Source: Thermobispora bispora DSM 43833
Lineage (GTDB): Bacteria > Actinomycetota > Actinomycetes > Streptosporangiales > Streptosporangiaceae
Assembly: GCF_000092645.1 (NCBI RefSeq)
Contig: NC_014165.1
Span: 372,001 to 436,000, forward strand
Direction: 5' to 3'
DNA: 64,000 bases
Of the stretch, positions 38,756 through 63,037 are shown piece after piece. The notes under the pieces are model-generated. The model worked only from the letters and a program-made list of their open reading frames with translations, did no database searches and had not been told where the DNA came from. Position numbers and translations under genes: made by a program. Within the stretch, counting starts at the first letter, position 1; each line of letters starts with the position of its first letter.

Positions 38756-39265
38756 GTGAAATCCTTCCTGTCCGTCGCTTGGGGTGCGCTTTTCCGTGGG
38801 GCGGGCCCGCGTTCCCCACGGAATCCAGCGTCCGGCTAAGGAGGCCACCGCCACATCGGGCAAATGCCGTAACTTCGGCCCATTCCGGGTCGGCCGATGG
38901 GCTTAGGACCCGCCCTAAGGAGGACGGACCGGCCCCGTGCGGCCTAAGGCGGCGGCGGTCCGGCCTCAGGCACCCGGCGGCGGCTCGGCGTCCCGGATCC
39001 CGCGGCGGGCAGGGCGGTGGACACGCCCGCGGAGGACGCGGTCCGCGTCCGCGGCCCCCGCACCGACTCCGGCGCGGTGGACACGTCCCGAAGGGGTACG
39101 CGCCGTGGGAGACGCCCCCGCCGGCGGGCCTCCGCCACGCGGCGGCGGTCCGGCGTCCGTTACGGGCCGGCAGGGGCGCAGATCCGCAGTCGGCGGACGG
39201 GACGTCCGATACCCCTGGAGCGGGCGGGTTTGGACACGCCCCTCCGGGTCGGCAATGCTGGTTGC
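38756..39265. other. Intergenic region upstream of deoC
   Basis: 510 bp. Contains CTTAGG-ACCCGC-CCTAAG (38,904-38,921) and GGTGGACACG at about 39,014 and 39,075, with a third related TTGGACACGCC near 39,230. No gene was found. The deoC promoter must be here, but no SD precedes deoC, so a leaderless transcript is possible. Confidence 0.45.
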
Positions 39266-40216
39266 GTGTCAACCATGACTGCTCCGCTTGCGGAGGTCGC
39301 CGCATCCAACGCGTCCCTGCGGGCGTTCCTGCACGGCCTGCCCGGCGTGGACCGGGTGGGCGCGGAGGCCAGGGCCGCGATGCTCGGCACGCGATCGATC
39401 AAGACCACGGCGAAGAAGCACGCCATCGACCTCGCCATCCGCATGCTCGACCTCACCACGCTCGAGGGCGCGGACACCCCGGGCAAGGTGCGGGCGATGT
39501 GCGCGAAGGCGGTACGGCCCGACCCCTCCGACCCGGACGCCCCCTCCGTCGCCGCCGTCTGCGTCTACCCGGACCTGGTCCCGGTGGCCGTGGCGGCGCT
39601 GCAGGGCACGGGGGTGAAGGTGGCCTCGGTCGCAACGGCGTTTCCGAGCGGGCGATCCTCGCTCAATGTGAAGGTGGCGGAGACCGAGTACGCGGTCGCC
39701 GCCGGCGCGTCCGAAGTGGACATGGTGATCGACCGGGGCGCCTTCCTCGCCGGCGACTACCTCAAGGTGTACGAGGAGATCGCGGCGGTGAAGGCGGCGT
39801 GCGCCGGACGCGCGCACCTGAAGGTGATCCTGGAGACCGGCGAGCTCGCCACGTACGACAACGTCCGGCGGGCCTCCTGGCTCGCCATGCTCGCCGGGGC
39901 GGACTTCATCAAGACCTCGACCGGCAAGGTGTCGCCGGCCGCCACGCCCGCCGTGACCCTGATCATGCTGGAGGCGGTGCGCGGCTACCTGAAGGCCACC
40001 GGGCGCCGGGTCGGGGTGAAGCCGGCGGGTGGCATCCGGACCACCAAGGACGCCATCAAGTACCTCGTGCTGGTGAACGAGACCGCCGGCCCCGACTGGC
40101 TCGACCCCGAGTGGTTCCGGCTGGGCGCCTCGTCGCTCCTGAACGATCTGCTGATGCAGCGCCAGAAGCTGGCCACCGGCCGGTACGCAGGCCCCGACTA
40201 CTTCACCCTGGACTGA
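39266..40216 (+). CDS. deoC: Deoxyribose-phosphate aldolase
   Basis: 316 residues from GTG 39,266 (ATG 39,275 alternative; no clear SD). Class I aldolase splitting 2-deoxyribose-5-phosphate into acetaldehyde and glyceraldehyde-3-phosphate. Landmarks are VAAVCVYPDLVPVA, VASVATAFPSGRSS, EVDMVIDRGAFLAGDY, the Schiff-base lysine in DFIKTSTGK and the second active-site lysine in GVKPAGGIRT. Longer than the 220-residue E. coli-type enzyme because of N- and C-terminal extensions, as in the eukaryote-like DeoC group. Followed 4 bp later by an aldehyde dehydrogenase that could oxidise the acetaldehyde. Confidence 0.94.
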   Translation: MSTMTAPLAEVAASNASLRAFLHGLPGVDRVGAEARAAMLGTRSIKTTAKKHAIDLAIRMLDLTTLEGADTPGKVRAMCAKAVRPDPSDPDAPSVAAVCVYPDLVPVAVAALQGTGVKVASVATAFPSGRSSLNVKVAETEYAVAAGASEVDMVIDRGAFLAGDYLKVYEEIAAVKAACAGRAHLKVILETGELATYDNVRRASWLAMLAGADFIKTSTGKVSPAATPAVTLIMLEAVRGYLKATGRRVGVKPAGGIRTTKDAIKYLVLVNETAGPDWLDPEWFRLGASSLLNDLLMQRQKLATGRYAGPDYFTLD

Positions 40217-40220
40217 CGCC

Positions 40221-41657
40221 ATGTTCGAGTACGCGCCCGCGCCCGAATCGCGGGACATCGTCGATATCCAGCCGTCGTACGGCTTGTTCATCAACGGGGA
40301 GTGGGTCGAACCCCACTCCGAGGAGCGGCACCCGACCGTCAACCCGGCCACCGAGGAGCCGTTGTCCGAGATCGCCTGGGCGGACGAGGCCGACGTGGAC
40401 CGGGCGGTCGAGACCGCGCGCAAGGCGTTCGTCACCTGGTCGGCGATGCGCGGCGCCGAACGGGCGAAGTACCTCTTCCGGATCGCCCGGATCATCCAGG
40501 AACGAGCGCGCGAGCTCGCCGTGCTGGAGACCCTCGACAACGGCAAGCCGATCCGCGAGTCGCGCGACGTGGACCTGCCGCTGGTCGCAGCCCACTTCTT
40601 CTACTACGCGGGCTGGGCGGACAAGCTCGCCTACGCCGGGCTCGGCCGGCCCGGGAGGGAGCCCCGGCCCATCGGCGTGGCCGGGCAGGTGATCCCATGG
40701 AACTTCCCGCTGCTCATGCTGGCGTGGAAGGTCGCCCCCGCGCTCGCCTGCGGCAACACGGTCGTGCTCAAGCCCGCCGAGACCACCCCGCTCACCGCGC
40801 TCGCCTTCGCCGACATCTGCCGGCAGGCCGACCTGCCCCCCGGCGTGGTCAACATCGTCACCGGTGCCGGGGAGACCGGAGCGGCGCTGGTGCGCCACCC
40901 CGGCGTGGACAAGGTCGCGTTCACCGGCTCGACCGAGGTCGGCAAGCTCATCGCCAAGGCCGTGGCGGGGACGGGCAAGCGGCTCACCCTGGAGCTCGGG
41001 GGCAAGGCCGCCAACATCGTGTTCGACGACGCGCCCATCGACCAGGCGGTCGAGGGGATCGTCAACGGCATCTTCTTCAACCAGGGCCACGTGTGCTGCG
41101 CGGGGTCCCGGCTGCTCGTCCAGGAGTCGATCGCCGATGAGCTGATCGAGGCGCTCAAGCGGCGGATCGCCCTGCTCCGGGTCGGCGACCCGCTCGACAA
41201 GAACACCGACATCGGCGCGATCAACTCGGCCGAGCAGCTCGCCAAGATCCGTGAGCTCGCCGAGTCCGGGGAGGCGGAGGGCGCCGAGCGGTGGTCGCCG
41301 CCGTGCACGCTCCCGGACCGGGGGTACTGGTTCCCGCCGACGGTGTTCACCAACGTGGCGCAGTCGCACCGCATCGCGCGGGAGGAGATCTTCGGCCCGG
41401 TGCTCTCCGTGCTCACGTTCCGCACCCCCGCCGAGGCGGTGGAGAAGGCGAACAACACGCCGTACGGCCTCTCCGCTGGGGTGTGGACGGAGAAGGGCTC
41501 GCTCATGCTGTGGATGGCGTCCCGGCTCCGCGCCGGGGTGGTCTGGTCGAACACGTACAACCGGTTCGACCCGGCGTCGCCGTTCGGCGGGTACAAGGAG
41601 TCGGGTTACGGCCGCGAAGGTGGTCGGCACGGTCTGGAGGAGTACCTTGCGTTGTGA
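40221..41657 (+). CDS. NAD(P)-dependent aldehyde dehydrogenase
   Basis: 478 residues, full-length ALDH. NAD-binding GQVIPWNFPLLMLAWK and FTGSTEVGK, general base in LELGGKAANIVF and the nucleophile in FFNQGHVCCAGSR, then EEIFGPVLSVLTF. Operonic with deoC (4 bp), so its likely physiological substrate is acetaldehyde from deoxyribose breakdown (inference). In related actinomycetes deoC is also followed by two ALDH genes. Confidence 0.95.
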   Translation: MFEYAPAPESRDIVDIQPSYGLFINGEWVEPHSEERHPTVNPATEEPLSEIAWADEADVDRAVETARKAFVTWSAMRGAERAKYLFRIARIIQERARELAVLETLDNGKPIRESRDVDLPLVAAHFFYYAGWADKLAYAGLGRPGREPRPIGVAGQVIPWNFPLLMLAWKVAPALACGNTVVLKPAETTPLTALAFADICRQADLPPGVVNIVTGAGETGAALVRHPGVDKVAFTGSTEVGKLIAKAVAGTGKRLTLELGGKAANIVFDDAPIDQAVEGIVNGIFFNQGHVCCAGSRLLVQESIADELIEALKRRIALLRVGDPLDKNTDIGAINSAEQLAKIRELAESGEAEGAERWSPPCTLPDRGYWFPPTVFTNVAQSHRIAREEIFGPVLSVLTFRTPAEAVEKANNTPYGLSAGVWTEKGSLMLWMASRLRAGVVWSNTYNRFDPASPFGGYKESGYGREGGRHGLEEYLAL

Positions 41658-41827
41658 TGATCCCCGTCGCCGCCGCCTGATCCGCGGCGGGGGCGGCGTC
41701 ACTTTCCCGCGCGTCCATCGCTACCCCCGGCTCGCGGTGTGGCGCGGCCGGTACGCCCACCGGGGCGGGGTCTGCCGGTGCGGCCACACCGACCGTCCCG
41801 CGCGTCCGCTGCAGATTGGAACCTTCG

Positions 41828-42694
41828 ATGACTGAGCGCCTGGCGGTACGGAAGACGTACAAGCTGTTCATCGGCGGGGCGTTCCCGCGTTCGGAGAGCG
41901 GAAGGTCGTACGTGGTGCACTCCTCCTCCGGTGAGTTCCTGGCGAACGCGGCGAAGGCCTCGCGCAAGGACGCCCGGGACGCGGTGGTGGCCGCCCGGAA
42001 GGCGTTCCCCGGCTGGTGGGGCGCGACGCCGTACAACCGGGGGCAGATCATCTACCGCGCCGCCGAGATGCTCGAGGGCCGCCGGGCGCAGTTCGCCGCG
42101 GAGACGGCCGCCCTCGAGGGGATCGACCTCGAGCGGGCCGGGGAGCTGGTGGACGCCGCGGTGGACCGGCTCGTCTGGTACGCGGGCTGGTCGGACAAGA
42201 TCGCCGCGGTGCTCGGCTCGGCCAACCCGGTCGCCGGGCCGTACTTCAACCTGTCGTCGCCGGAGCCGGCCGGGGTGGTCGCCGTGATCGCCCCGCAGAC
42301 GGCGTCGCTCCTCGCGCTGGTGAGCGTGATCGCCCCGGTGATCGTGACCGGCAACACCTGCGTGGTGGTCGCCGCGGAGCGGGCCCCGCTGCCGGCGATC
42401 ACCTTCGCCGAGGTGCTCGCCACCTCCGACCTGCCGGGCGGGGTGGTGAACATCCTCACCGGCTCCACGGAGGAGCTCGCCCCCTGGCTCGCCGGGCACA
42501 TGGACGTGAACGCCATCGACCTCACCGGGGCCGGGCCGGAGCTCGCGGTCCGCTGTGAGGAGCTCGCGGCCGAGAACCTCAAGCGGGTGCTGCGCCCGCC
42601 GGCCATGCCGATCGACTGGTCGGCCGATCCGGGGATCGAGCGCATGGCCGCCTTCCTCGAGATCAAGACCGTGTGGCACCCGATGGGCGCCTGA
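41828..42694 (+). CDS. Truncated aldehyde dehydrogenase-like protein, probable pseudoenzyme
   Basis: 288 residues from ATG 41,828. N-terminal half of the ALDH fold: KLFIGGAFPRSESGR, ARKAFPGWWGATPYNRGQIIYRAAEML, GVVAVIAPQTASLLALVSVI and GGVVNILTGSTEEL. The catalytic Cys loop and everything after it are missing, LELGGK is absent, and the end (EIKTVWHPMGA) is in frame and clean. 170 bp after the full ALDH. Conservation of this pairing would argue for a structural partner or regulator rather than decay. Confidence 0.85.
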   Translation: MTERLAVRKTYKLFIGGAFPRSESGRSYVVHSSSGEFLANAAKASRKDARDAVVAARKAFPGWWGATPYNRGQIIYRAAEMLEGRRAQFAAETAALEGIDLERAGELVDAAVDRLVWYAGWSDKIAAVLGSANPVAGPYFNLSSPEPAGVVAVIAPQTASLLALVSVIAPVIVTGNTCVVVAAERAPLPAITFAEVLATSDLPGGVVNILTGSTEELAPWLAGHMDVNAIDLTGAGPELAVRCEELAAENLKRVLRPPAMPIDWSADPGIERMAAFLEIKTVWHPMGA

Positions 42695-45874: not shown

Positions 45875-46804
45875 GTGCTGTCGCTCATCTCCCGGTCGCT
45901 GTGCATCGCCCTGCTCGTCCTGACCGCCGTGGCCTGCGGCGGCGCGAGCGGGCCGCCGTCCGCCGACGGATCGCGGCTGAACGTGGTGGCCACCACCACC
46001 CAGGTCGCCGACTTCGCGGCGAACATCGGCGGGGACAAGGTGCGGGTGCACGGGCTCCTCAAGCCGAACGTGGACCCCCACGACTACGAGCCGACCCCGC
46101 TCGACATGCGGATGCTCGCCGAGGCCGACGTCGTGGTGAAGAACGGGGTGGGCTTCGAGAAGTGGCTGGACCAGGCGATCGAGGCCTCCGGGTTCCGCGG
46201 CACCCTGGTCGATGCCTCCCAGGGCGTACGGCTCCGCACCGGGGAGGGGGCGAGCGCCGACCCGCACATCTGGCACGACCCCCGCAACGCGAAGACCATG
46301 GCGGCGAACATCGCGCGCGCCTTCGCCGCGGCCGATGCCGCCAACGCCGCCGTCTACGAGCAGAACCTCGCCGCCTACCAGGCCCGGCTCGACGAGCTCG
46401 ACGCGGAGATCGAGAAGAAGATCCAGTCCATCCCGGAGGACCGGCGCAAGCTCGTCACCGACCACGACACGTTCGGGTACTACGCCGACCGTTACGGGCT
46501 CACCGTGGTCGGCTCGGTCATCCCCAGCTTCGACACCTCGGCCGAGCTGTCCGCCAAGCAGATCACCGACCTGGTCGCCAGGATCAAGGCTGCCGGTGTG
46601 ACCGCGATATTCTCCGAGGCATCGCTTCCGCCGAAGACGGCCGAGGCCATCGGCCGGGAGGCGGGGGTGCGGGTCGTGGCCGGTGAGGACGCCCTGTACG
46701 GCGACTCCCTCGGACCGGAGGGCTCGGCCGGAGCGACCTACCTGCAGATGATGCGGCACAACACCGACACGATCGTCGCCGCTCTCGGGGGTGCGGCCAC
46801 ATGA
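45875..46804 (+). CDS. znuA: Zinc-binding lipoprotein of the ZnuA/TroA family
   Basis: 309 residues from GTG 45,875 (AAGGA upstream). Signal peptide with lipobox VAC near residue 21. Metal ligands expected at His in PHDYEPTP, His in DPHIWHDP, His in DHDTFGYYADRYG and Asp in VVAGEDALYGDSL. No long His-rich loop, unlike Gram-negative ZnuA. Together with the Zur box and operon partners this is a zinc uptake receptor; manganese cannot be excluded from sequence alone. Confidence 0.9.
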   Translation: MLSLISRSLCIALLVLTAVACGGASGPPSADGSRLNVVATTTQVADFAANIGGDKVRVHGLLKPNVDPHDYEPTPLDMRMLAEADVVVKNGVGFEKWLDQAIEASGFRGTLVDASQGVRLRTGEGASADPHIWHDPRNAKTMAANIARAFAAADAANAAVYEQNLAAYQARLDELDAEIEKKIQSIPEDRRKLVTDHDTFGYYADRYGLTVVGSVIPSFDTSAELSAKQITDLVARIKAAGVTAIFSEASLPPKTAEAIGREAGVRVVAGEDALYGDSLGPEGSAGATYLQMMRHNTDTIVAALGGAAT

Positions 46805-48440: not shown

Positions 48441-49267
48441 CCTGGTTCGACTCGAGCGTGCACCGGGCGCTGGCCGAGGCCGTGCTCGTGGGGGCGCTCG
48501 GCGGCGTGGTCGGGGTGCACGTGCTCATCCGGCGGCTGCCGTTCTTCACCATGGCGCTCACCCACGCCACCTTCCCGGGGATCGTGATCGCGGCGCTGCT
48601 CGGGGCCGACCTCTACCTCGGCGGGGGTGTGTTCGGCCTGCTCATCACCCTCGCCGTGGTGCTCTTCTCCCGGGTGCGCGGCCAGGACTTCACCGCGGCC
48701 ACCGGCATCGCGCTCGCCGGCGGGTTCGCCCTCGGGGTGGTCCTGGTCTCCGCCCAGGACGGCTTCGCCAAGGACCTGACCGCGTACACGGTCGGCGACA
48801 TCCTCGCGGTGAGCGCGCGGGACCTGGCGATCACCGCCGGCATCGCGGCCGCGGTGACCCTCCTGCTGGTCGTTTTCCGCCGGGAGCTGCTGATCACCGC
48901 GTTCGACCCCGTGGGGGCGGCCGCCCTCGGCCTGCGCACCGCGCTGATCGACTTCATCCTGCTCGCCGCGGTCGTGGTGACCGTGGTGGCGACCGTGCCC
49001 GCGCTCGGCGTCATCCTCACCGTCGCCCTGCTCGTGGGGCCCGCCGCGACCGCGCGGCTGCTCACCGACCGGTACGCGCTGCTCTTCCCGATCTCGGCGG
49101 CGATCGGCGTCTCGTGCGGGGTCGCCGGGGTGTGGCTGTCGACCGTGTGGAACGTCGCGGCCGGGGCCTCGATCGCCCTGCTCGTCGGCGTCGTGTTCGG
49201 CCTGGTCTTCCTCGGCTCGCACGGTGCCGCCCTGGTGCGACGGCGGGCGGCGGCCCGGCCGCTGTGA
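48437..49267 (+). CDS. Zinc ABC transporter permease 2
   Basis: 276 residues, ATG 48,437 overlapping the stop of permease 1 (ATGA). ABC-3 family: VHVLIRRLPFFTMALTHATFPGIV, TAYTVGDILAVS and FDPVGAAALGLRTALIDF parallel the first permease. The two are paralogues and probably form a heterodimer, an arrangement usual for actinobacterial Zn/Mn importers. Last gene of the operon; a hairpin follows. Confidence 0.93.
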   Translation: MTWFDSSVHRALAEAVLVGALGGVVGVHVLIRRLPFFTMALTHATFPGIVIAALLGADLYLGGGVFGLLITLAVVLFSRVRGQDFTAATGIALAGGFALGVVLVSAQDGFAKDLTAYTVGDILAVSARDLAITAGIAAAVTLLLVVFRRELLITAFDPVGAAALGLRTALIDFILLAAVVVTVVATVPALGVILTVALLVGPAATARLLTDRYALLFPISAAIGVSCGVAGVWLSTVWNVAAGASIALLVGVVFGLVFLGSHGAALVRRRAAARPL

Positions 49268-49274
49268 CGCACGC

Positions 49275-49293
49275 CCCCGGCCGAGCGCCGGGG
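49275..49293. terminator. Hairpin after the zinc operon
   Basis: CCCCGGC-CGAGC-GCCGGGG, 7-bp perfect stem, between the convergent zinc permease and methyltransferase A. Confidence 0.6.
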
Positions 49294-49307
49294 AGCGGAC
49301 CCGGTGA

Positions 49308-50108
49308 TCAGCCGACGACGCCGACCCCGCCGTAGACCACGGCACCCTCGGTCCGGGTGCGCACCGGCTCCCCCTCGCGTGGCCGCCACTCGTCGACCGT
49401 CACCACGCCGGGCTCGACGAGCTCGCACCCCTCGAAGAACCGCAGGATCTCCTCCCGCGTCCGGGCGACCGCCTCCCCGGCCGAGGACCGGGCGTAGACC
49501 CGCCTTATCGCGGCGACCCCCTTGTCATCGAGCCGGCCCGCGGAGCCGTGGCTGATCACCAGGTGGCTGCCGGGGGCGAGGCGGTCGCGCAGCTTGGCGA
49601 CCGCGGGGTAGGCGGCCTCGTCCGGGAGGAAGTGGAGGATGGCGACCAGCAGCAGGCCGACCGGCTCGTTGAAGTCGAGGTGCTCCGTGACCTCGGGGTT
49701 GTCGAGGATGCTCTCCGGCTCGCGCAGGTCGCCCTGCGCCACGGCCACCTGCGGGTTGCGGCCGAGCAGGGCCCGGGCGTGTGCCAGCACGATCGGGTCG
49801 TTGTCGACGTAGACGATCCGGGAATCGGGGGCCTTGCGGAGTGCGACCTCGTGGACGTTCTCCTGGGTGGGCAGGCCGGTGCCGATGTCGAGGAACTGGC
49901 GGATGCCCTGGTCGGCCAGGTACTCCACGGCGCGGATCAGGAAGCGCCGGTTCGCCCGGACCTCTTCCTGAGCGTTGGGGGCGGCCTGGATGAGCTTTGC
50001 CGCGGCCTCCCGGTCGGAGGCGAAGTTGTCCTTGCCGCCCAGCAGGTAGTCGTAGATGCGGGCCGGGCTGGGCACGCTGGGGTCGATTCCCGGTGGGATC
50101 TTCTCCAT
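49308..50108 (-). CDS. SAM-dependent methyltransferase, DUF574 family (copy A)
   Basis: 266 residues from ATG 50,108. S-adenosyl methyltransferase family PF04672, expanded in filamentous actinomycetes, substrate unknown. PARIYDYLLGGKDNFASDRE opens the fold, SAM-binding motif I is FLDIGTGLPTQENVHEVA near residue 78, then YVDNDPIVLAHARALL, GDLREPESILDNPEV and LLVAILHFLPDEA. First of five tandem paralogues on the minus strand. Each has its own leader, so they are probably not one operon. Confidence 0.93.
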   Translation of the reverse strand: MEKIPPGIDPSVPSPARIYDYLLGGKDNFASDREAAAKLIQAAPNAQEEVRANRRFLIRAVEYLADQGIRQFLDIGTGLPTQENVHEVALRKAPDSRIVYVDNDPIVLAHARALLGRNPQVAVAQGDLREPESILDNPEVTEHLDFNEPVGLLLVAILHFLPDEAAYPAVAKLRDRLAPGSHLVISHGSAGRLDDKGVAAIRRVYARSSAGEAVARTREEILRFFEGCELVEPGVVTVDEWRPREGEPVRTRTEGAVVYGGVGVVG

Positions 50109-50121
50109 GATCACATCACGT

Positions 50122-50139
50122 CGGCGAGCATCGATGATC
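50122..50139 (-). promoter_or_regulatory. Conserved element 14-31 bp upstream of methyltransferase A
   Basis: On the plus strand CGGCGAGC-ATC-GATGATC; shared with copies B, C and D at nearly identical distance from the start codon. Confidence 0.55.
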
Positions 50140-50406
50140 ATTGACTGTAACGAGCATTCGTCCCCTTGGTCACTGGGTTCGCCGCATTCGGTCACGGATT
50201 CCCGATGAGCCCGCCATCGACCGCCCAGGCCGTGGTGGGCCGGGCGGCGCGCGGCCGCCGCGGCCTGACCATCGACGCCCTCCGGCCGCCGGGTGCCCGC
50301 CCTTCGCCGTGGCCCGTACGGCGGCGCCGTACGGCGGGGCGGGCGAGGCGTGATCGGATGGCGCACCGGCCGGTACGCCGGTGGGCCGGCGTCGCGGGAG
50401 CGGCGG

Positions 50407-51207
50407 TCAGCGGAGGACCCCGACCCCGGCGAAGCCGCCCACGCCGGGAAGTCCCGGCATGATGACCTCGTCCTTCCGCGGGCGCCATTCCCTGATCCGG
50501 ACCAGGCCCGGCTCGACGAGCTCGAATCCGTCGAAGAACCGCGCGATGTCCTCCCGGGACCGCGGGACCGCCACGCCGGCCTGGGACTGGGTGTAGATCC
50601 GCCTGCCTTTCTCGAGCGTCCTCTCGTCGAGGTCACCGGCCGAGACGTGGCTGATCACCAGGTGGCTGCCGGGGGCGAGCCGGTCGCGCAGCTTGGCGAC
50701 CGCGGGGTAGGCGGCCTCGTCCGGGATGAAGTGGAGGATGGAGACCAGTAGCAGGCCGACCGGCTCGTTGAAGTCGAGGTGCGCGGTGACCTCGGGGTTG
50801 TCGAGGATGCTCTCGGGTTCGCGCAGGTCGCCCGCCACCGCGATCGTCTGCGCGTTACAGGCGAGGAGCGCGCGGGCGTGGGCGAGCACGATGGGGTCGT
50901 TGTCGACGTAGACGATCCGGGAATCGGGGGCCTTGCGGAGTGCGACCTCGTGGACGTTCTCCTGGGTGGGCAGGCCCGCGCCGATGTCGAGGAACTGGCG
51001 GATGCCCTGGTCGGCCAGGTACTCCACCGCGCGGACGAGGAAACGCCGATTCGCTCGCGCGCTCTCCTTGATATTGGGCGAGAGCTCCAGCAGCTTCTGC
51101 GCGACCGCGCGATCGACGGCGAAGTTCTCCTTTCCCCCGAGGAAGAAGTCGTAGATGCGGGCCGCGCTGGGCACGTCGGGGTCGATGCCCGGCGGAACCT
51201 GTTCCAT
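50407..51207 (-). CDS. SAM-dependent methyltransferase, DUF574 family (copy B)
   Basis: 266 residues from ATG 51,207 (an in-frame ATG 12 bases earlier is unlikely). Same blocks as copy A: ARIYDFFLGGKENFAVDR, FLDIGAGLPTQENVHEVA, YVDNDPIVLAHARALL, GDLREPESILDNPEV and ILHFIPDEA. Motif I reads DIGAGLP. Sequence after residue 200 diverges most, as expected for a substrate-facing part. Own leader with the shared upstream element. Confidence 0.93.
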   Translation of the reverse strand: MEQVPPGIDPDVPSAARIYDFFLGGKENFAVDRAVAQKLLELSPNIKESARANRRFLVRAVEYLADQGIRQFLDIGAGLPTQENVHEVALRKAPDSRIVYVDNDPIVLAHARALLACNAQTIAVAGDLREPESILDNPEVTAHLDFNEPVGLLLVSILHFIPDEAAYPAVAKLRDRLAPGSHLVISHVSAGDLDERTLEKGRRIYTQSQAGVAVPRSREDIARFFDGFELVEPGLVRIREWRPRKDEVIMPGLPGVGGFAGVGVLR

Positions 51208-51220
51208 GGCACACCCCATC

Positions 51221-51237
51221 GACGAGCGCTGATGATC
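51221..51237 (-). promoter_or_regulatory. Conserved element 14-30 bp upstream of methyltransferase B
   Basis: Plus strand GACGAGC-GCT-GATGATC, followed by TTCAAATTCTGGCGATC. Confidence 0.55.
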
Positions 51238-51503
51238 TTCAAATTCTGGCGATCGTTTCCGGTTTAGCAGTGCTCTGCCAGGGGTGCGGTGGTTCGCACA
51301 AGGTGGCGGCGGACGCCGGTCGGCGATCTCACCGGTGCGCCGGCGCCCACCTGAGCCGCCGCCCCGCGTGGTGCCGGATCCCTCGGCCCGGGGCGGCGCG
51401 GGCGCCGCTCCCCGCCGGTCCGGCGGTGGGCGACGACCGTCACGGGTGCGGTACGGCCGGCGTCGGTCCCGGTGCGCCGGGCCGCTCAGGGAGGCGTCGC
51501 CGA

Positions 51504-52304
51504 TCAGCGGAGGATCCCGACCCCCGCGTAGCCGTCCACGCCGGGAAGCCGCGGCAGCTTGACCTCGTCGTCCCGCGGGCGCCAGTCCTCCACCCAGACG
51601 AGGCCGGGCTCGACGACCTCGAATCCGTCGAAGAACCGCTCGATCTCCTCGCGCGTCCGTGGGATCGCCGATCCGGCGGAGGACCTGGCGTAGATCTGCT
51701 TCACCTCCGCCAGCCCCTTCTCATCGATCTGGCCCATGGAGGCATGACTGATCACCAGGTGGCTGCCGGGGGCGAGGCGGTCGCGCAGCTTGGCGACCGC
51801 GGGGTAGGCGGCCTCATCGGGGATGAAGTGGAGGATGGCGACGAGGATCAGGCCGACCGGCTCGTTGAAGTCGAGGTGCGCGGTGACCTCGGGGTTGTCG
51901 AGGATGCTCTCGGGTTCGCGCAGGTCGCCCGCCACCGCGATCGTCTGCGCGTCGCAGGCGAGGAGCGCGCGGGCGTGGGCGAGCACGATGGGGTCGTTGT
52001 CGACGTAGACGATCCGGGAGCCGGGGGCCTTGCGGAGTGCGACCTCGTGGACGTTCTCCTGGGTGGGCAGGCCGGCCCCGATGTCGAGGAACTGGCGGAT
52101 GCCCTGGTCGGCCAGGTACTCCACGGCGCGGATGAGGAAACGCCGGTTCGCCTGGGCCGCCTCCTTGGCGTTGGGGGCGTGCTCCAAGATCTTCTCGGCG
52201 GCCGCGCGATCGACGGCGAAGTTGTCCTTGCCTCCGAGCAGGTAGTCGTAGATGCGTGCCGGGCTCGGCACGTTGGGGTCGACCCCCTGCGGAAACTTGT
52301 CCAT
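51504..52304 (-). CDS. SAM-dependent methyltransferase, DUF574 family (copy C)
   Basis: 266 residues. ARIYDYLLGGKDNFAVDR, FLDIGAGLPTQENVHEVA, YVDNDPIVLAHARALL, GDLREPESILDNPEV. Closest to copy B in the SAM-binding half, where long stretches are nearly identical at DNA level, suggesting recent duplication or gene conversion. Upstream element present. Confidence 0.93.
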   Translation of the reverse strand: MDKFPQGVDPNVPSPARIYDYLLGGKDNFAVDRAAAEKILEHAPNAKEAAQANRRFLIRAVEYLADQGIRQFLDIGAGLPTQENVHEVALRKAPGSRIVYVDNDPIVLAHARALLACDAQTIAVAGDLREPESILDNPEVTAHLDFNEPVGLILVAILHFIPDEAAYPAVAKLRDRLAPGSHLVISHASMGQIDEKGLAEVKQIYARSSAGSAIPRTREEIERFFDGFEVVEPGLVWVEDWRPRDDEVKLPRLPGVDGYAGVGILR

Positions 52305-52316
52305 GTGTCACACTCT

Positions 52317-52336
52317 GACGGCGAGCTTTGATGATC
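52317..52336 (-). promoter_or_regulatory. Conserved element upstream of methyltransferase C
   Basis: Plus strand GACGGCGAGC-TTT-GATGATC, ending 32 bp from the start codon; the following segment carries about 10 extra bases relative to B and D. Confidence 0.55.
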
Positions 52337-52624
52337 TTGAACAGGTAGCGGTTCTTGCCGATCGCGGGCCGTGCCGAGGTCCGGGCCGCAGCCGAGGAGC
52401 GCCGTAACCGGCGGGCGGCCTCTGGAGCCATCGCCCGGGCTCCGCCGTTCACCGGGACCGGACCGAGCCCTTCGCTGAGCGCCGCCACGGCCGGAGCCGC
52501 CACGGCCGGAGACCGTGCGGTCCGCCCGGGGCCGCGGGGCCGCCCTCCGCGCGGAGGCCCGGCGGAGGGCGCGCGAAGCTCGCTCCGGGCCGCGGCGCTC
52601 ACCGGGCCCAGGTCGAACGGCGGG

Positions 52625-53425
52625 TCAGCGGACGATCGCGACCCCGGCGTAGCAGTCACTGCCCTGCATCCGCGGGATCCGGTCCTCGCCCTCCGTCCGG
52701 CGCCAGTCGTCCGGCCAGACCAGGCCGGGCTCGACGAGCCCGTACTCACCGAAGAACCGCTGGATGTCGCCGCGCGACCGCGGGACCAGCGCGCCGGCCG
52801 ACGACTTGGCGTAGACCTGCTTGCCCTCCTGGACGGTCTTCTCGTCCAGATCCTCGGCGGAGATGTGGCTGATCGCCAGGTGGCTGCCGGGGGCGAGCCG
52901 GTCGCGCAGCTTGGCGACCGCGGGGTAGGCGGCCTCGTCCGGGATGAAGTGGAGGACGGCGACGAGGAGCAGGCCCACCGGCTGGCCGAGGTCGATGTGC
53001 TTCGTGACCTGGGGGTTGTCGAGGATGCTCTCCGGCCGGCGCAGGTCGCCTTCGACGGCGACCACGCGCTTCTCATCGGCGAGGAGCGCGCGGGCGTGCA
53101 CGAGCACGATCGGGTCGTTGTCCACGTAGACCACGCGCGAATCCGGGGCGTGCCGCAGCGCGACCTGGTGGACGTTCTCCTGGGTGGGCAGGCCGGTGCC
53201 GATGTCGAGGAACTGGCGGATCCCCTGCTGGGTCATGTACTCCACGGCGCGGATGAGGAAGCGCCGGTTCGCCCGGGCCACCTCGCGGGCGTTGGGGGAG
53301 AGCTGCAGAACCTTCTCGGCGGCCGCGCGGTCGGAGGCGAAGTTGTCCTTGCCTCCGAGCAGGTAGTCGTAGATCCGGGCCGGGCTGGGCACGGTCGGGT
53401 CGATTTTCGGCGGGACCTTATCCAT
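52625..53425 (-). CDS. SAM-dependent methyltransferase, DUF574 family (copy D)
   Basis: 266 residues from ATG 53,425 (GTG 53,431 possible). Forms a subgroup with copy E: YMTQQGIRQFLDIGTGLPTQ, HQVALRHAPDSRVVYVDNDP, GDLRRPESILDNPQV and DLGQPVGLLLVAVLHFIPDE, where A-C read differently (YLADQ, HEVALRKAP, EP). Substrate unknown. Own leader with the shared element. Confidence 0.93.
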   Translation of the reverse strand: MDKVPPKIDPTVPSPARIYDYLLGGKDNFASDRAAAEKVLQLSPNAREVARANRRFLIRAVEYMTQQGIRQFLDIGTGLPTQENVHQVALRHAPDSRVVYVDNDPIVLVHARALLADEKRVVAVEGDLRRPESILDNPQVTKHIDLGQPVGLLLVAVLHFIPDEAAYPAVAKLRDRLAPGSHLAISHISAEDLDEKTVQEGKQVYAKSSAGALVPRSRGDIQRFFGEYGLVEPGLVWPDDWRRTEGEDRIPRMQGSDCYAGVAIVR

Positions 53426-53438
53426 CGTCACACCCCGT

Positions 53439-53456
53439 CGGCGAGTAATGATGATC
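53439..53456 (-). promoter_or_regulatory. Conserved element 14-31 bp upstream of methyltransferase D
   Basis: Plus strand CGGCGAGT-AAT-GATGATC, followed by TTTAACTCTAGCCATCGG, which aligns with the equivalent part of copy B. Confidence 0.55.
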
Positions 53457-53933
53457 TTTAACTCTAGCCATCGGATTTCCCGATAGCCATGGCTCGCCGG
53501 TGAGCGTGTGTTTCAGCCGGGGTGCCGATGGCGGCGCCAGATGCCGTCCAGACGTGGCAAAACGTTCCAAATCCTCACACGGTGCCTCGTTGCTCGCCCG
53601 ATACGCGCTCTGGTACGGGCGCCGCATCGGTGACCGAAACCGCGTGCCCGTTTTCCGCGGGGTGCGATGCCCGATATCACCCTCCGCCGAGGCGGTCCCT
53701 GGGGCCGTCACGCCCGGCCGGCGTCCGGAACGCGGGCCCGGCCGTCCGGAATGGCGGCCGGGTGCATCGGGCCGCGGCCGGGCCGCCGGTCAGCGGAGGG
53801 TCCCGGCCGTGGCACAGCGGTCACCGCGGCCGGAGCGGAGGCGCGGCTGATCACCAGGGCGGGGTGGATCCGGCTTCGGGCGCCGCCGGTACCGGCCTCG
53901 ACGGCCGGGCCACCCGGTGAGCGCGAGCGCCGA
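53457..53933. other. Intergenic region between methyltransferases D and E
   Basis: About 480 bp, longest spacer of the array. GC-rich with short open frames and no recognisable gene, promoter or repeat. Confidence 0.45.
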
Positions 53934-54737
53934 TCATCGGAGGATGCCGACGCCGGCGTAGCTGTCGACGCCCGGGAGCCGGGGGAGCCGTACCTCGTCT
54001 TCTCGCGGGCGCCAGTCGTCGGGCCAGGGGACTAGGCCGGGCTCGACGAGCTCGAACCCGTCGAAGAACCGCAGGATCTCCTCCCGTGACCGTGGGATCG
54101 CCATGCCGGCCGACGATCGGGCGTAAATCTCCTTGCCCTTTTCGATCACGTCTTCGTTGAGGTCGCGGGAGACGGAGCCGTGGCTGATCACCAGATGGCT
54201 CCCCGGGGCGAGCCGGTCGCGCAGCTTGGCGACCGCGGGGTAGGCGGCCTCGTCCGGGATGAAGTGGAGGACGGCGACGAGGAGCAGGCCCACCGGCTGG
54301 CCGAAGTCGATGTGCTGTGTGACCTCGGGGTTGTCGAGGATGCTCTCCGGCCGGCGCAGGTCGCCTTCGACGGCGACCACGCGCTTCTCATCGGCGAGGA
54401 GCGCGCGGGCGTGCGTCAGGACGATCGGGTCGTTGTCCACGTAGACCACGCGCGAATCCGGGGCGTGCCGCAGGGCCACCTGGTGGACGTTCTCCTGGGT
54501 GGGCAGGCCGGCGCCGATGTCGAGGAACTGCCGGATGCCCTGCTGGGTCATGTACTCCACGGCGCGGATCAGGAAGCGCCGGTTCGCCTGGGCCCCCTCT
54601 TTGAGGTTGGGGGAGAGCCGCAGCAGGTTCTCCGCCGCCTCACGGTCGGCGGGGAAGTTGTCCTTGCCGCCGAGCAGGTAGTCGTAGATGCGGGCCGGGC
54701 TGGGCACGGTCGGGTCGATCTGCGGCGCGTTCTCCAT
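53934..54737 (-). CDS. SAM-dependent methyltransferase, DUF574 family (copy E)
   Basis: 267 residues from ATG 54,737. ARIYDYLLGGKDNFPADRE, YMTQQGIRQFLDIGAGLPTQ, HQVALRHAPDSRVVYVDNDP, GDLRRPESILDNPEV. Sister of copy D. The upstream region differs from A-D: the GATCAT core is present near 54,801-54,809, but the spacing is longer (about 64 bp) and the GCGAG part is missing. Confidence 0.93.
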   Translation of the reverse strand: MENAPQIDPTVPSPARIYDYLLGGKDNFPADREAAENLLRLSPNLKEGAQANRRFLIRAVEYMTQQGIRQFLDIGAGLPTQENVHQVALRHAPDSRVVYVDNDPIVLTHARALLADEKRVVAVEGDLRRPESILDNPEVTQHIDFGQPVGLLLVAVLHFIPDEAAYPAVAKLRDRLAPGSHLVISHGSVSRDLNEDVIEKGKEIYARSSAGMAIPRSREEILRFFDGFELVEPGLVPWPDDWRPREDEVRLPRLPGVDSYAGVGILR

Positions 54738-55269
54738 GCGGCACCCCATCGGGAGCAGTGCGATGTCGAATGCGGCGACAACAGCGGTCCTTTCACTTTA
54801 ATGATCATTTGTCCCCGCTGTCAGCGCTTCGCAACGGATCGGCGCGCCGTACGGCGGGGAGTGGTGATGCGCGACCGAGACCGCCGGCGTGAGGTCGGCA
54901 CCCCTGCGGCCCGATCCGCGCTCCGCCGCTCCCGATCCCGTTCGCCGGTCTGGAGCCACGCATGGGCCTCATGCCCGCGGTCGGCGTGCACGCCGCCGCC
55001 GTGCTCGCCGAGCTCGGCCGTACCGCGAGGAGATCGCCGGACTCGCCAGGCGCGAGATCAGGCGACCGGCCCGGCGGCGACCGAGACGAACGAGGTTCGG
55101 AGTCCGCTGCGTGGCGGCGACAAGGCGGCACGGCCTCATCGATGCGCGATGGGCGGCCGGGTCACCGCGCCGTCCGGGCGCCCGCCGGCGGATCAGGCGC
55201 GACGGGGCGTTCGCGCGGGATGCGGGAGAAGCGCTGCCGATCACTGGATGCTGCCGAGGGCCGGGGCGG
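54738..55269. other. Intergenic region with a gene relic
   Basis: About 530 bp between copy E and the ArsR gene. Apart from the relic at 54,965-55,063 no gene or regulatory signal was identified. Confidence 0.45.
54965..55063 (+). pseudogene. C-terminal relic resembling CaiB/BaiF CoA-transferases
   Basis: GLMPAVGVHAAAVLAELG followed, one frame shift later (near 55,019), by YREEIAGLARREI. This resembles the usual C-terminus of class III CoA-transferases (P-x-x-G-x-H-x-x-x-V-L-x-E-L-G...EEI-x-x-L). No other part of such a gene remains. Confidence 0.4.
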
Positions 55270-55617
55270 TCACGCGCCGGTGCGCCGGCGCTGGGCGGCG
55301 TCGGCGGCGAGCACCGCGTCGAGCAGCCCGGGGAAGAGCCGGTCGAGATCGTCGCGGCGCAGCGCGTTCATCTTCGCCGTGCCGCGGTAGACCTGGGTGA
55401 TGACGCCGGCCTCGCGCAGCACCCGGAAGTGGTACGTCGAGGTCGACTTGCTCACCGCGAGCTCGATCGCGGAGCAAGGGGCCTCGGTGCCGAGCTCGGC
55501 GAGGCGGCGGACCACTTGGAGCCGTACGGGGTCGGCGAGCGCATGCAACACCGCCTCAAGCCGGATCTCCTCCGGCTTGGGGTGCTCGAGTACGCGGCCC
55601 GGCGCGGCGGATGGCAC
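55270..55617 (-). CDS. ArsR-family transcriptional regulator
   Basis: 115 residues from GTG 55,617, chosen for AAGGAG four bases upstream (ATG 55,647 is possible). LEAVLHALADPVRLQVVRRLAELG and SKSTSTYHFRVLREAGVI form the winged helix; a single Cys in EAPCSAIELAV is not a metal site. Divergent from an Old Yellow Enzyme gene across 129 bp with three iterons, so it likely represses that gene in response to an electrophile or similar signal rather than a metal. Confidence 0.9.
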   Translation of the reverse strand: MPSAAPGRVLEHPKPEEIRLEAVLHALADPVRLQVVRRLAELGTEAPCSAIELAVSKSTSTYHFRVLREAGVITQVYRGTAKMNALRRDDLDRLFPGLLDAVLAADAAQRRRTGA

Positions 55618-55660
55618 GGCTCTCCTTATCGGTCGACCGGCCCTCATTGTATGACACCTT

Positions 55661-55705
55661 TCGTAGTTCGACAGTATTCGTAGTACGATGACCGTCGTAG
55701 TTCGA
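55661..55705. promoter_or_regulatory. Three TCGTAGT(T/A)CGA iterons, 17-bp period
   Basis: TCGTAGTTCGA at 55,661, TCGTAGTACGA at 55,678 (perfect palindrome around G) and TCGTAGTTCGA at 55,695, exactly 17 bp apart, in the divergent arsR/OYE control region. Best candidates for the ArsR binding sites. Confidence 0.75.
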
Positions 55706-57080: not shown

Positions 57081-58043
57081 ATGGCAGAGATCGGTTACAC
57101 CCTGCTGTGCGAGCAGGCTCCGCCGCGGCAGCTCGTGGACGACGCGGTGACGGCCGAGCGGATCGGCTTCGGCTTCGCGGTCATCTCCGACCACTACTTC
57201 CCGTGGCTGGAGGAGATGGGCCACTCGCCGTACGCGTGGTCCGTGCTCGGCGCCGTGGCCCAGGCCACCGAGCGCATCCCGCTCATGACCTTCGTGACCT
57301 GCCCGATCATGCGCTACCACCCGGCGGTGGTCGCGCAGAAGGCGGCCACCATGGGCGTGCTGAGCGGGGGCAGGTTCACCCTGGGCCTCGGCTCCGGGGA
57401 GAACCTCAACGAGCACGTCGTCGGGCTCGGCTGGCCCGCGGTGAGCGCCCGGCACGAGATGTTCCGGGAGGCCGTCGAGATCATCAAGGATCTGTTCGAG
57501 GGCGGCTACCGCTCCTACCGGGGCGCGTACTTCGATCTCGAGTCCGCCAAACTCTACGACCGGCCCGACCCGCCGGTGCCGATCGCGATCGCGGCCTCCG
57601 GCGAGCGGTCGGTGAACCTCGCCGTCGAGTACGGCGACGCGCTGGTCTGCGCGGATCCCGACGGCGACCTGGTGCGGCGGTACCGGTCCATCGGGGGCGA
57701 GGGCAGGCCGGTCTACGGGCAGGTCGCCCTCTGCTACGACCGGGACCGGGACGCGGCGGTCGAGCGCGCCCACCGCCTCTGGCGCTGGTCGGTCACCGGG
57801 TGGAAGGTGATGTCCGAGCTTCCCGCGCCGGTCAACTTCGCGGCCGCGACCACGACCGTGCGCCCGGAGGATGTGGCCCGGCAGGTGCCGTGCGGCCCGG
57901 ACGTGGACGCCGTGGTCGCCGCGGTGCAGCGGTACGTCGACGCGGGCTTCACCCACGTCGCCCTGCTGCAGATCGGCCACGCCGAGCACCAGCGGGAGTT
58001 CTTCGACTGGGCGGAGAAGGAGCTGCTCCCCGCGCTGCGGTGA
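57081..58043 (+). CDS. LLM-class F420-dependent oxidoreductase, G6PDH-like family
   Basis: 320 residues. Starts MAEIGYTLLCEQAPPRQLVDDA and continues with FAVISDHYFPWLEEMGHSPYAWSVLGA, PLMTFVTCPIMRYHPAVVAQKAATM, GRFTLGLGSGENLNEHVVG: the pattern of the TIGR03557 F420 family, close to but distinct from glucose-6-phosphate dehydrogenase. A luciferase-like TIM barrel using F420 hydride transfer. Indicates F420 metabolism. Substrate unknown. Confidence 0.92.
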   Translation: MAEIGYTLLCEQAPPRQLVDDAVTAERIGFGFAVISDHYFPWLEEMGHSPYAWSVLGAVAQATERIPLMTFVTCPIMRYHPAVVAQKAATMGVLSGGRFTLGLGSGENLNEHVVGLGWPAVSARHEMFREAVEIIKDLFEGGYRSYRGAYFDLESAKLYDRPDPPVPIAIAASGERSVNLAVEYGDALVCADPDGDLVRRYRSIGGEGRPVYGQVALCYDRDRDAAVERAHRLWRWSVTGWKVMSELPAPVNFAAATTTVRPEDVARQVPCGPDVDAVVAAVQRYVDAGFTHVALLQIGHAEHQREFFDWAEKELLPALR

Positions 58044-60762: not shown

Positions 60763-61569
60763 ATGGGCTTCGATTTCCGTTTCTTAGGACCCCTGCAGGT
60801 ATGGCGGGGCGGCCGGTTCATTGAGATTCGCGCGCCGAAGCAGCGCGCGCTGCTGGCCGTTCTGGCGATCCGCGCCGGTCAGGTCGTTTCCATCGACCGG
60901 TTGATCGAAGAACTGTGGGGAGGTGCCCCGCCTCCTTCCGCGCGGACCACGCTGTACTCGCTCGTGTTCCGGCTCAGGCGGCGCCTGCACGCCGGCGTGG
61001 AGGTGATGGGCACCCGTTCGCCCGGTTACCTGCTCCGGGTGGCGCCGGGCGCGCTCGACTTCCGGCGGTTCGAGGCGGGCCTGGTCCGGGGCCGGGCCGA
61101 GCTGGCCGCGCAGGACCACGCGCGGGCGGCGCGGACCTTCCGCGACGCCCTCGCGCTGTGGCGCGGGCAGGCGTTCGCGGACGTGCCGGAGATCCCGCTG
61201 GTGCAGGCGGAGGCGCGGCGCCTGGAGGAGCTCCGGCTCACCGCGCTGGAGGACCGGATCGAGGCCGACCTCGCGCTCGGCCGGCACGCGCTCGTCGCGG
61301 CCGAGCTGTACGCGCTCGTGGAGGAGTACCCGCTGCGCGAGCGGCTGTGGGAGATGCTCATGCTGGCGCTCTACCGGAGCGCCCGCCAGGTGGACGCGCT
61401 GCGCGCCTTCGAGCAGGCGCAGCAGGCGCTCGCGGGCCATTGGGGGCTCACCCCCGGGCCGGGCCTGAAGCGGATGTACGAGCGGATCCTCGCCGCCGAC
61501 CCGGGGCTCATGCCGATGGAGCGTTCCGAACCGCCGCCGACCGCGCTCGGCGACCCCCGCGACCGGTGA
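60763..61569 (+). CDS. SARP/AfsR-type transcriptional activator
   Basis: 268 residues. OmpR-like DNA-binding domain FRFLGPLQVWRGGRFIEIRAPKQRALLAVLAI, IDRLIEELWGGAPPPSARTTLYSLVFRLRRRL (residues 5-80), then a BTAD helical domain LDFRRFEAGLVRGRAEL...ALYRSARQVDALRAFEQAQQAL. Short SARPs activate antibiotic or RiPP clusters by binding 11-bp-spaced direct repeats. Such a repeat lies 199 bp downstream of its stop, ahead of the peptide/MccB-like pair, making this the probable pathway activator. Confidence 0.93.
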   Translation: MGFDFRFLGPLQVWRGGRFIEIRAPKQRALLAVLAIRAGQVVSIDRLIEELWGGAPPPSARTTLYSLVFRLRRRLHAGVEVMGTRSPGYLLRVAPGALDFRRFEAGLVRGRAELAAQDHARAARTFRDALALWRGQAFADVPEIPLVQAEARRLEELRLTALEDRIEADLALGRHALVAAELYALVEEYPLRERLWEMLMLALYRSARQVDALRAFEQAQQALAGHWGLTPGPGLKRMYERILAADPGLMPMERSEPPPTALGDPRDR

Positions 61570-61918: not shown

Positions 61919-63037
61919 ATGGAGAGCCGTCTCGACGTACCCACGTGGCGGCCGCGGCTGCGCGACAGCGTGATCGTGCAGCGCGATGGGGACGAGCTGC
62001 TGTTCATCTGCACCGGCGACCGGACCGTCAAGCGGTTCAGCGCCGACGAGCGGGCCATGCGCCTGCTCCCGTTGCTGACCGGCCGGAAGACCGTGGCCGA
62101 GCTCGCCGAGGCCGTGGGCGCCGCCTCGGTGGAGGAGATCCGGCCGGTGCTGCAGGTGCTCGAGGAGGAGCGCCTGCTGAGCAAGGCGTCCGACTTCGAC
62201 GGCGACTTCCTGACGCTGGGCAGCCGCCGCGCCTACTACTACGACCGGCAGCTCCGCCTCTTCCAGGACTTCTGCGACGAGGAGCTGCTCGCGGACCTCA
62301 GCGGCGTCGACGTGCAGCGGCGCCTCGATGGGGCGACGGTGGTGATCTGCGGTGTCGGCGGGCTCGGCGGCTGGATCGCCCACCTGCTCGGCCTGGCCGG
62401 GGTGGGGACGCTCCGGCTCTGCGACTTCGACCGGGTCGAGCTGACCGATCTCGCCCGGCAACCGCTCTTCACGGTCGAGGACGTGGGCAGGTCCAAGGTG
62501 GACGCGGCGGCCGCCCGCATCGGTGACCTGAACCCGCACGTGACCGTCGAGCAGTTCATGCGGAAGATGAGCGGCCCCGATGACCTCGGCGACCTGGTCG
62601 CCGGGGCCGACCTGGTGATCGCGGCGGCCGACGAGCCGAGCCCGGTCGACGTGGCCACCTGGATCTCGGAGGCCTGCCGGGAGGGCATCCCGCACATCAT
62701 CGGCGGCGGGTACGCCTACCACCTCGGCGTGGTGGGGACCACGGTGATCCCCGGCCGCTCGGCGTGCTGGGAGTGCGTGCGCTCGGTGACCCTCGCCGAG
62801 CACGGCCGGGCGCAGGCCATCACCCTGATCCCGAGACGCCAGCGCACCGGCGGGCTCGGGGTGCTGAACGGCCTGGTCGCCAGCGTGCTGGCCTGGGAGG
62901 CGATCCGGGTCGTGGTCGGGCTGCCCCCGGCGCTGACCGACCGCTGGCTCGAGATCGACCTCTGGTCGCTCACCAAGCGGGTCCGCTCCATCGAGCGGCG
63001 GCCGGACTGCCCGGCGTGCGGGGACGCCGGGGCCTGA
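61919..63037 (+). CDS. MccB-like enzyme: RiPP recognition element fused to E1/ThiF adenylyltransferase
   Basis: 372 residues. Residues 15-90 form a PqqD-like winged helix (FICTGDRTVKRFSADERAMRLL...VLQVLEEERLLS), the peptide-binding RRE/clamp. Residues 110-372 are an E1-like fold: Rossmann loop VVICGVGGLGGW at 141-152, DFDRVELTDLARQ at 169-181, AADEP at 236-240, and zinc-binding CxxC pairs at 283/286 and 364/367. Size and layout match MccB (about 350 residues), which converts the C-terminal Asn of a short peptide into a phosphoramidate nucleotide. No ubiquitin-like or ThiS partner is nearby. Confidence 0.85.
   Translation: MESRLDVPTWRPRLRDSVIVQRDGDELLFICTGDRTVKRFSADERAMRLLPLLTGRKTVAELAEAVGAASVEEIRPVLQVLEEERLLSKASDFDGDFLTLGSRRAYYYDRQLRLFQDFCDEELLADLSGVDVQRRLDGATVVICGVGGLGGWIAHLLGLAGVGTLRLCDFDRVELTDLARQPLFTVEDVGRSKVDAAAARIGDLNPHVTVEQFMRKMSGPDDLGDLVAGADLVIAAADEPSPVDVATWISEACREGIPHIIGGGYAYHLGVVGTTVIPGRSACWECVRSVTLAEHGRAQAITLIPRRQRTGGLGVLNGLVASVLAWEAIRVVVGLPPALTDRWLEIDLWSLTKRVRSIERRPDCPACGDAGA

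Follow-up and report, generated by a model that had tools for sequence, protein, structure and literature searches.

We analysed a stretch of 64,000 nucleotides from Thermobispora bispora DSM 43833 (contig NC_014165.1, positions 372,001 to 436,000; hereafter the window), which carries a tandem array of five methyltransferase genes, A to E, of the Pfam family PF04672 (Methyltransf_19, formerly DUF574). The array probably results from a lineage-specific tandem amplification in which gene conversion kept the cores of the copies alike while their ends diverged, the copies being separately promoted methyltransferases. According to this model, one unit of promoter plus open reading frame (ORF) would have been amplified in tandem in the Thermobispora lineage, an ancestral PF04672 gene, whose orthologue never exceeds one copy in those sampled relatives that carry it, giving rise to five copies. 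The central segment that binds S-adenosylmethionine (SAM; about residues 61-187) would have been exchanged among the copies by gene conversion. Divergence would meanwhile have gone on in a helical N-terminal region (31-50) and in the last third of the protein (188-266), with the C-termini of A and D outpacing those of their sisters C and E. Each copy would be transcribed from a promoter of its own and encode a functional cytosolic methyltransferase, dependent on SAM and acting on small molecules.

The array and its genes

The five genes are intact and follow one another head to tail within positions 49308-54737 of the window; all are encoded on the minus strand, with ATG starts, TGA stops and the transcription order E to A.

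49308..50108, minus strand: array gene A, PF04672 methyltransferase, 266 aa; fast-changing C-terminus
50407..51207, minus strand: array gene B, PF04672 methyltransferase, 266 aa; core almost the same as that of C
51504..52304, minus strand: array gene C, PF04672 methyltransferase, 266 aa; C-terminus slower than that of A
52625..53425, minus strand: array gene D, PF04672 methyltransferase, 266 aa; fast-changing C-terminus
53934..54737, minus strand: array gene E, PF04672 methyltransferase, 267 aa; transcribed first; C-terminus slower than that of D

The spacers measure 298, 296, 320 and 508 bp, third-position GC is 0.93-0.96, and overall pairwise amino acid identity is 69-80%. All five proteins match PF04672 with 308-320 bits against a cut-off of 26 (E values 6e-92 to 2e-95), and the matches cover about positions 3-266 of the 268 in the profile, indicating whole-chain membership. 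ORFs, Pfam matches and spacers agree with an earlier note on this DNA, which had described five intact paralogues of 266-267 residues, head to tail and 300-500 bp apart.

Homogenisation of the core

We defined the core as residues 61-187, which hold strands 1-5 of the structural model of C, and the ends as the remainder. B and C differ at 4/127 core positions versus 50/139 end positions, D and E at 6/127 versus 47/138, A and B at 12/127 versus 60/139, and A and C at 14/127 versus 53/139. Core identity is 89-97% among A, B and C and 95% between D and E, but 80-83% between the two subgroups, so that the near-identity of the SAM-binding halves claimed in the earlier note holds within the subgroups and not between them. 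The C-terminal third is variable, as had also been claimed, and residues 31-50 vary as well.

The same division was applied to orthologues from related genomes, using only pairs with 20% or more divergence in the ends (303 of 351). Their core/ends ratio of divergence ranged from 0.57 to 1.33, with a median of 0.92. For nine of the ten array pairs, every one of the 303 orthologue ratios was higher; for the tenth, C-E, a single orthologue pair was lower. The within-group array pairs had ratios of 0.09-0.29. Core dS (synonymous divergence) was 0.12 for B-C and 0.11 for D-E, compared with 0.46-0.59 in three orthologue pairs. The copies are closer to each other than to the orthologues, with divergence locally reduced relative to the orthologue control, as in a concerted array.

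A further control came from the same genome, in which a search for the family gave eight matches, two of them within the single frame of G, and therefore seven family genes: A to E and two dispersed members.

Genome position 1565875: family gene F, dispersed
Genome positions 1847142-1847822: family gene G, dispersed; one open frame

G lacks about 30 core residues, roughly model positions 112-140, through an in-frame loss, and retains the 23 family-invariant positions, all of them outside the deleted stretch; it may be a decaying or an altered copy. Compared with A-E over 94 core columns, the deleted stretch being left out, G gave core/ends ratios of 0.67-0.95, inside the orthologue range. Since these ratios are ordinary, the homogenisation of the core is confined to the array.

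Strong purifying selection on the core, without gene conversion, might also account for the near-identity, as 18 of the 23 positions invariant in the family precede residue 105 and several of these fall within the core, and as core dS is lowered in orthologues too. However, the orthologue core diverges almost like the ends, and the comparison of the array with G is ordinary, yet within-group array ratios are far lower; we consider this explanation quite improbable. When the longest run of matches across variable sites was tested by permutation, the pairs B-C and D-E (p_global 0.0004) and A-B (0.0018) stood out. The B-C run was also strong at silent sites alone (p 0.0002), and a Fisher test against one orthologue pair was significant for B-C (1.6e-5), D-E (3e-4), A-B (0.002) and A-C (0.013).

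Several results speak against gene conversion in the array. The other seven of the ten array pairs had no significant run at all variable sites. At silent sites alone, A-B (0.012) and A-C (0.045) were weak and the D-E run was not significant (p 0.78), and in the Fisher test against one orthologue pair none of the between-group pairs tried (A-D, C-E and B-D) was significant. Moreover, core dS is somewhat below end dS in the three orthologue pairs as well, and part of the core/ends contrast is therefore intrinsic. Taken together, these sequence comparisons clearly favour domain-limited gene conversion within A-C and also favour it within D-E; between the groups, conversion would be older or weaker. 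The gene conversion put forward in the earlier note is in this way borne out for the central part by the orthologue controls and permutation tests.

Trees of the separate regions (41 rows, chosen from sequences at hand, as were the 48 rows of the family tree) grouped A-B-C (support 83) and D-E (93) in the core. The N-terminal tree recovered neither group, and in the C-terminal tree D-E were joined at only 35, A stood with C, and B stood apart. Because both subgroups appear in the core tree and neither in the N-terminal tree, they stem mainly from the homogenised core. The division into A-C and D-E proposed earlier is therefore upheld for the core, lost in the N-terminal part and weak in the C-terminal part.

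Divergence of the ends and selection

Whole-gene ratios of nonsynonymous to synonymous divergence (dN/dS) were 0.31-0.65 in the ten array pairs versus 0.22-0.35 in three orthologue pairs. The calculation by domain that the earlier note had suggested gave C-terminal values of 0.27-1.11 in the array, at least 0.9 in 4/10 pairs, versus 0.29-0.36 in the three orthologue pairs; between array and orthologue the values were 0.42-0.86. We then counted the C-terminal changes restricted to one copy relative to the orthologue majority and found ratios of 19:5 for A:C (p 0.007), 18:5 for A:B (p 0.011) and 16:2 for D:E (p 0.001), these p values being uncorrected for 12 tests. In the N-terminal part and the core, none of the four comparisons (A:C, A:B, D:E and B:C) showed a difference in one-copy changes. 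Among 35 C-terminal positions conserved in the orthologues, 14 are changed in A and 12 in D (P243R included), compared with 6 in B, 7 in C and 8 in E. The 27 orthologues themselves depart from 0-6 of these positions (median 1), a figure biased low because the columns were defined on them. A and D also have long branches in the C-terminal tree. Judging from these counts, constraint on the C-termini of A and D has either weakened or changed; the counts fit both alternatives.

Three points weaken this account. B is no faster than C (8:7, p 1.0); the branch of B is long in the short C-terminal tree, which carries warnings for few columns and long branches; and dN/dS was obtained by Nei-Gojobori counting without correction for codon bias.

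Relaxed selection on all copies, which the earlier note had named as the outcome contrary to its proposal, is not what we found. Each of A-E keeps 23/23 invariant columns and 35/35 columns conserved at 95% among 64 other family rows, including the SAM motif QFLDxGxGxP, with whole-gene dN/dS as given above; the 23 invariant columns are the same whether or not A-E stand in the alignment. An array in decay, with duplicates turning into pseudogenes, would be consistent with the long C-terminal branches of A and D and with the in-frame loss of about 30 core residues from the dispersed G. Such decay is very unlikely, given that 5/5 frames are intact, that every copy has all 35 strongly conserved family columns, and that C and A are predicted with confidence to fold over their full length.

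By analogy with class I methyltransferases in general, the variable stretches 31-50, 188-206 and 244-256 would face the acceptor. The earlier note had suggested diversification of substrate specificity; the divergence itself was confirmed, since the ends have diverged and the C-termini of A and D faster, while changed specificity does not follow from it and partial relaxation is possible. A changed substrate range of A and D is conceivable, if short of probable. The array could also serve dosage, with the same reaction catalysed by all copies, which would be kept for output, and with end divergence by neutral drift or relaxed constraint. The homogenised core, the conserved upstream blocks and the similarly conserved C-termini of B, C and E (6, 7 and 8 of 35 positions changed) fit this explanation, as does C-terminal dN/dS of up to 1.11, whose excess over 1 is not shown. 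It fits less well that the faster change of A and D relative to their sisters is limited to the C-terminal part and that frame and family-invariant residues are kept in every copy, and we regard dosage as somewhat unlikely. Alternatively, the array may be a specificity-diversifying set, in which conversion would keep the catalytic SAM core serviceable and leave the substrate-facing N- and C-terminal parts free, giving several acceptor ranges, possibly carboxylates of amino-acid-like molecules; we hold this to be unlikely.

Origin of the array

PF04672 was present in 150/150 sampled genomes of the same taxonomic family, many of them with at least 15 copies (once at least 16). These copy numbers are lower bounds, as the best 15 (family survey) or 17 (orthologue survey) candidates were scored per genome. 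In a profile search with A-E, 27/149 other genomes each had a single clear orthologue, scoring 390-434 bits, and the next matches reached at most 369 bits. Five array-type copies were found only in the T. bispora genome, and the orthologue was never arrayed in the 27 genomes that bear it. In the comparison of copy number in relatives proposed in the earlier note, the family is common and the array unusual. Within the fetched flanks, none of 80 loci had three or more family genes and 9/80 had two; these are the best 80 of at least 557 loci in named genomes, and some end at contig ends. In the family tree, A-E form one clade (99% by the Shimodaira-Hasegawa-like approximate likelihood ratio test, SH-aLRT) inside a starred group of 10, together with G and orthologues from Microtetraspora, Acrocarpospora and two Microbispora. 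The most economical interpretation places the origin of the array later than the divergence of its lineage from the relatives sampled. A lineage-specific amplification is nevertheless only loosely dated, as one genome of the genus Thermobispora was sampled.

No operon partner of the orthologue was seen in 20 fetched 20-kb loci, searched for ORFs of at least 60 aa, so that shorter partners could escape. Orthologue neighbourhoods were not conserved overall across the 20 orthologue loci and the G locus: neighbours at a steady position recurred among five loci only, and two more clusters occurred at scattered positions in nine and eight loci. A homologue of a luciferase-like gene of the window (57081-58043), with 73-75% identity, lies near the orthologue in 4/20 loci; in the one locus worked through by hand, order and orientation differ.

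Structural models and probable activity

AlphaFold models of C and A had a predicted local distance difference test score (pLDDT) of 95.4 and 95.0, respectively, and nearly the same elements. Since the model of A is confident and its elements are nearly those of C, the diverged end of A is still predicted to fold. The nearest structures to the C model, at ranks 1 and 2, were 2qe6 (Z 35.7, 44% identity) and 3giw (Z 35.4, 40% identity). In a structure re-ranking (VIA) of the best 1000 Foldseek matches to this model, they were followed by the leucine carboxyl methyltransferases PPM1 (Z 19.7, 242 residues, root mean square deviation 3.5) and LCMT-1 (Z 18.5). Mycobacterial LCM-like proteins came next at Z 17.8-17.9 (ML2640 17.9), tied within 1 Z with SgvM (17.1) and EgtD (17.0). 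Foldseek's own order placed DnrK-type O-methyltransferases third.

According to the portions of the structural reports available, 2qe6 contains SAM and 3go4 contains S-adenosylhomocysteine (PMC2954221), and the 3giw crystal holds an unknown ligand resembling phenylalanine (PMC2954221; PMC2954220). The authors, from the Joint Center for Structural Genomics, suggest phenylethanolamine N-, histamine N- or catechol O-methyltransferase activity (PMC2954221; PMC2954220). In the accessible text of a 2010 phenotype-prediction study, DUF574 is among the families weighted for 'Endospores' (PMC2955703), which may only reflect the distribution of the family. A literature search on family names and Protein Data Bank codes returned no report of an assay of any family member, in a body of text that mostly leaves subscription journals uncovered. 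The earlier statement that the family has no established substrate is in keeping with the passages found, in which only the crystal-bound phenylalanine-like ligand is reported.

A-E are most likely SAM-dependent small-molecule methyltransferases, presumably cytosolic, and are very probably catalytically active. A carboxylate or amino-acid-like acceptor is the leading guess, though a weak and doubtful one, suggested by the resemblance in fold to leucine carboxyl methyltransferases and by the ligand of 3giw that looks like phenylalanine. Two results count against it: hhalign gave 88% for Methyltransf_2 and 79% for LCM and did not single out the latter, the input rows being whole open frames and the values only indicative; and the weak TIGR00027 matches of 4/5 array proteins (17-22 bits, cut-off 93.55) stand beside weak matches to OlsG (NCBIfam) in 4/5 (18-26 bits, cut-off 350). 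PF04072 (LCM) was not reported by Pfam for A-E at E 0.001. Membership of LCM or TIGR00027 by sequence was rejected, the scores being far below curated cut-offs. An EgtD-like relationship (hhalign 0.2%) and a Methyltransf_2-like one (the 88% above) were also rejected, these values being likewise only indicative, as the rows were whole open frames, many with unrelated ends. A role in defence was rejected as well, on a PADLOC search with two of the five proteins, C and E, that gave no match at E 0.01.

Upstream blocks

Conserved blocks precede the genes of the array.

50112..50151, minus strand: upstream block of A with GATCATC 31 bp before the ATG; putative -10/operator region, its role presumed
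51208..51250, minus strand: upstream block of B with GATCATC at -30
52305..52350, minus strand: upstream block of C with GATCATC at -32
53426..53470, minus strand: upstream block of D with GATCATC at -31
54795..54824, minus strand: sigma-70-like site CTGACA-18-TAAAGT upstream of E; one found versus a shuffle mean of 0.3; consensus match only

The pattern GATCATCNNNRCTCGYCG has four perfect matches in the genome, each 30-32 bp before the ATG of one of A-D, and two more places match with one mismatch. Upstream of E, GATCATT is displaced to -69 and overlapped by the sigma-70-like site, and the leader is longer than in A-D. In the orthologues, GATC was found at -50..-26 in 25/27 (shuffle mean 4.5), and T-N1-3-GATC[ACG][ACT]C in the same interval in 21/27 (shuffle mean 0.27). 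The simplest reading of these motifs is that the block would be a -10 region, possibly with an operator, duplicated with each ORF, and it is likely that every copy has a promoter of its own. As a general signature of the family, the GATC block was rejected as weak, GATC being present at -60..-1 in 59/118 mixed family genes versus a shuffle mean of 44. TANGATC occurred in 9 of the 118, which include four orthologues, versus a shuffle mean of 1.2. No RNA element matched Rfam at the gathering score in 49000-55700.

One 18-mer, two mismatches away from the upstream pattern, is found at 447420, 1159975 and 3884204, far apart in the genome. It may lie in a repeated operon, the three copies equalling the number of rRNA operons given for T. 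bispora R51 in the available part of PMC3035289.

Genomic context

One flank of the array is a convergent metal-uptake operon with ZnuA at 45875-46804, an ATPase and a first permease, both named from sequence, and an ABC-3 permease (Pfam) that ends at 49267. The zinc-uptake permease beside the array had matches at E <=1e-60 in 4/60 other genomes. On the other flank, an HTH_20/ArsR-type regulator on the minus strand (55270 to about 55644) is followed by an NADH:flavin oxidoreductase and a luciferase-like oxidoreductase. The regulator gene precedes E on the same strand, stopping about 530 bp before it, and the zinc-uptake operon lies beyond the opposite end of the array. From these two neighbours on either side, a link of the array to metals is conceivable.

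We also considered A-E as methyltransferase partners of an XRE-DUF397 regulatory module, assuming a link between PF04672 methyltransferases and XRE-DUF397 pairs. This is extremely improbable: the two DUF397 genes of the genome, at 278648 and 1395844, are far from all seven family members, and neither of these two genome-wide matches is adjacent to the array, the 64-kb window holding no DUF397 gene. What favours it is that PF04672 is common in the taxonomic family and that DUF397-XRE pairs are, in the portion of PMC2701414 available, described as most abundant in actinobacteria.

Elsewhere in the window, a DeoC-family aldolase gene is followed by two aldehyde dehydrogenase genes (39017-42691), and the latter pair has 79% and 64% identity to a run in a Streptomyces contig. 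A regulator with Trans_reg_C and BTAD domains (60763-61566), which we take to be SARP-like, lies near a ThiF-family gene (61919-63034).

Relation to known systems and implications

The solved PF04672 members 2qe6 (Tfu_2867) and 3giw/3go4 (SAV_2177) share length, invariant residues and the whole fold with the array proteins; in contrast to them, T. bispora has five tandem, partly homogenised copies. Outside the family, PPM1/LCMT1, ML2640c and Rv0731c are the nearest folds in the re-ranking, with near whole-chain coverage and, on the sequence side, the weak TIGR00027 matches. However, their identity to the array is only 9-16%, and ML2640/Rv0731c tie with SgvM and EgtD within 1 Z. In a genome of the same class, four consecutive matches to LCM (PF04072) methyltransferases share a strand (contig positions 1252183-1255490); here a family of similar structure has expanded in tandem as well.

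Concerted evolution of prokaryotic paralogues, as described in the part of PMC6053082 available, resembles the array in that paralogues are kept together by gene conversion. It concerns other genes and long-lasting recurrent conversion, whereas the array involves one lineage and five tandem copies with only the central segment homogenised. MddM2 is a SAM-dependent methyltransferase of the same species; it belongs to the UbiE family, and its M. poriferae homologue has 204 aa and is predicted to be membrane-bound (PMC12904073, as far as its text was available). We rejected MddM2 as a relative of the array, as it is UbiE-type and set apart by this published description rather than by sequence. 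Because it was judged to be of another family in this way, its H2S/MeSH activity is uninformative on the array.

PF04672 thus occurs in every sampled genome of the taxonomic family, yet the literature searched holds no assayed substrate for it. The array is an example of conversion limited to the catalytic core. Five natural variants with a shared core and graded ends, plus a single-copy orthologue in relatives, form a comparative set for the residues of substrate choice.

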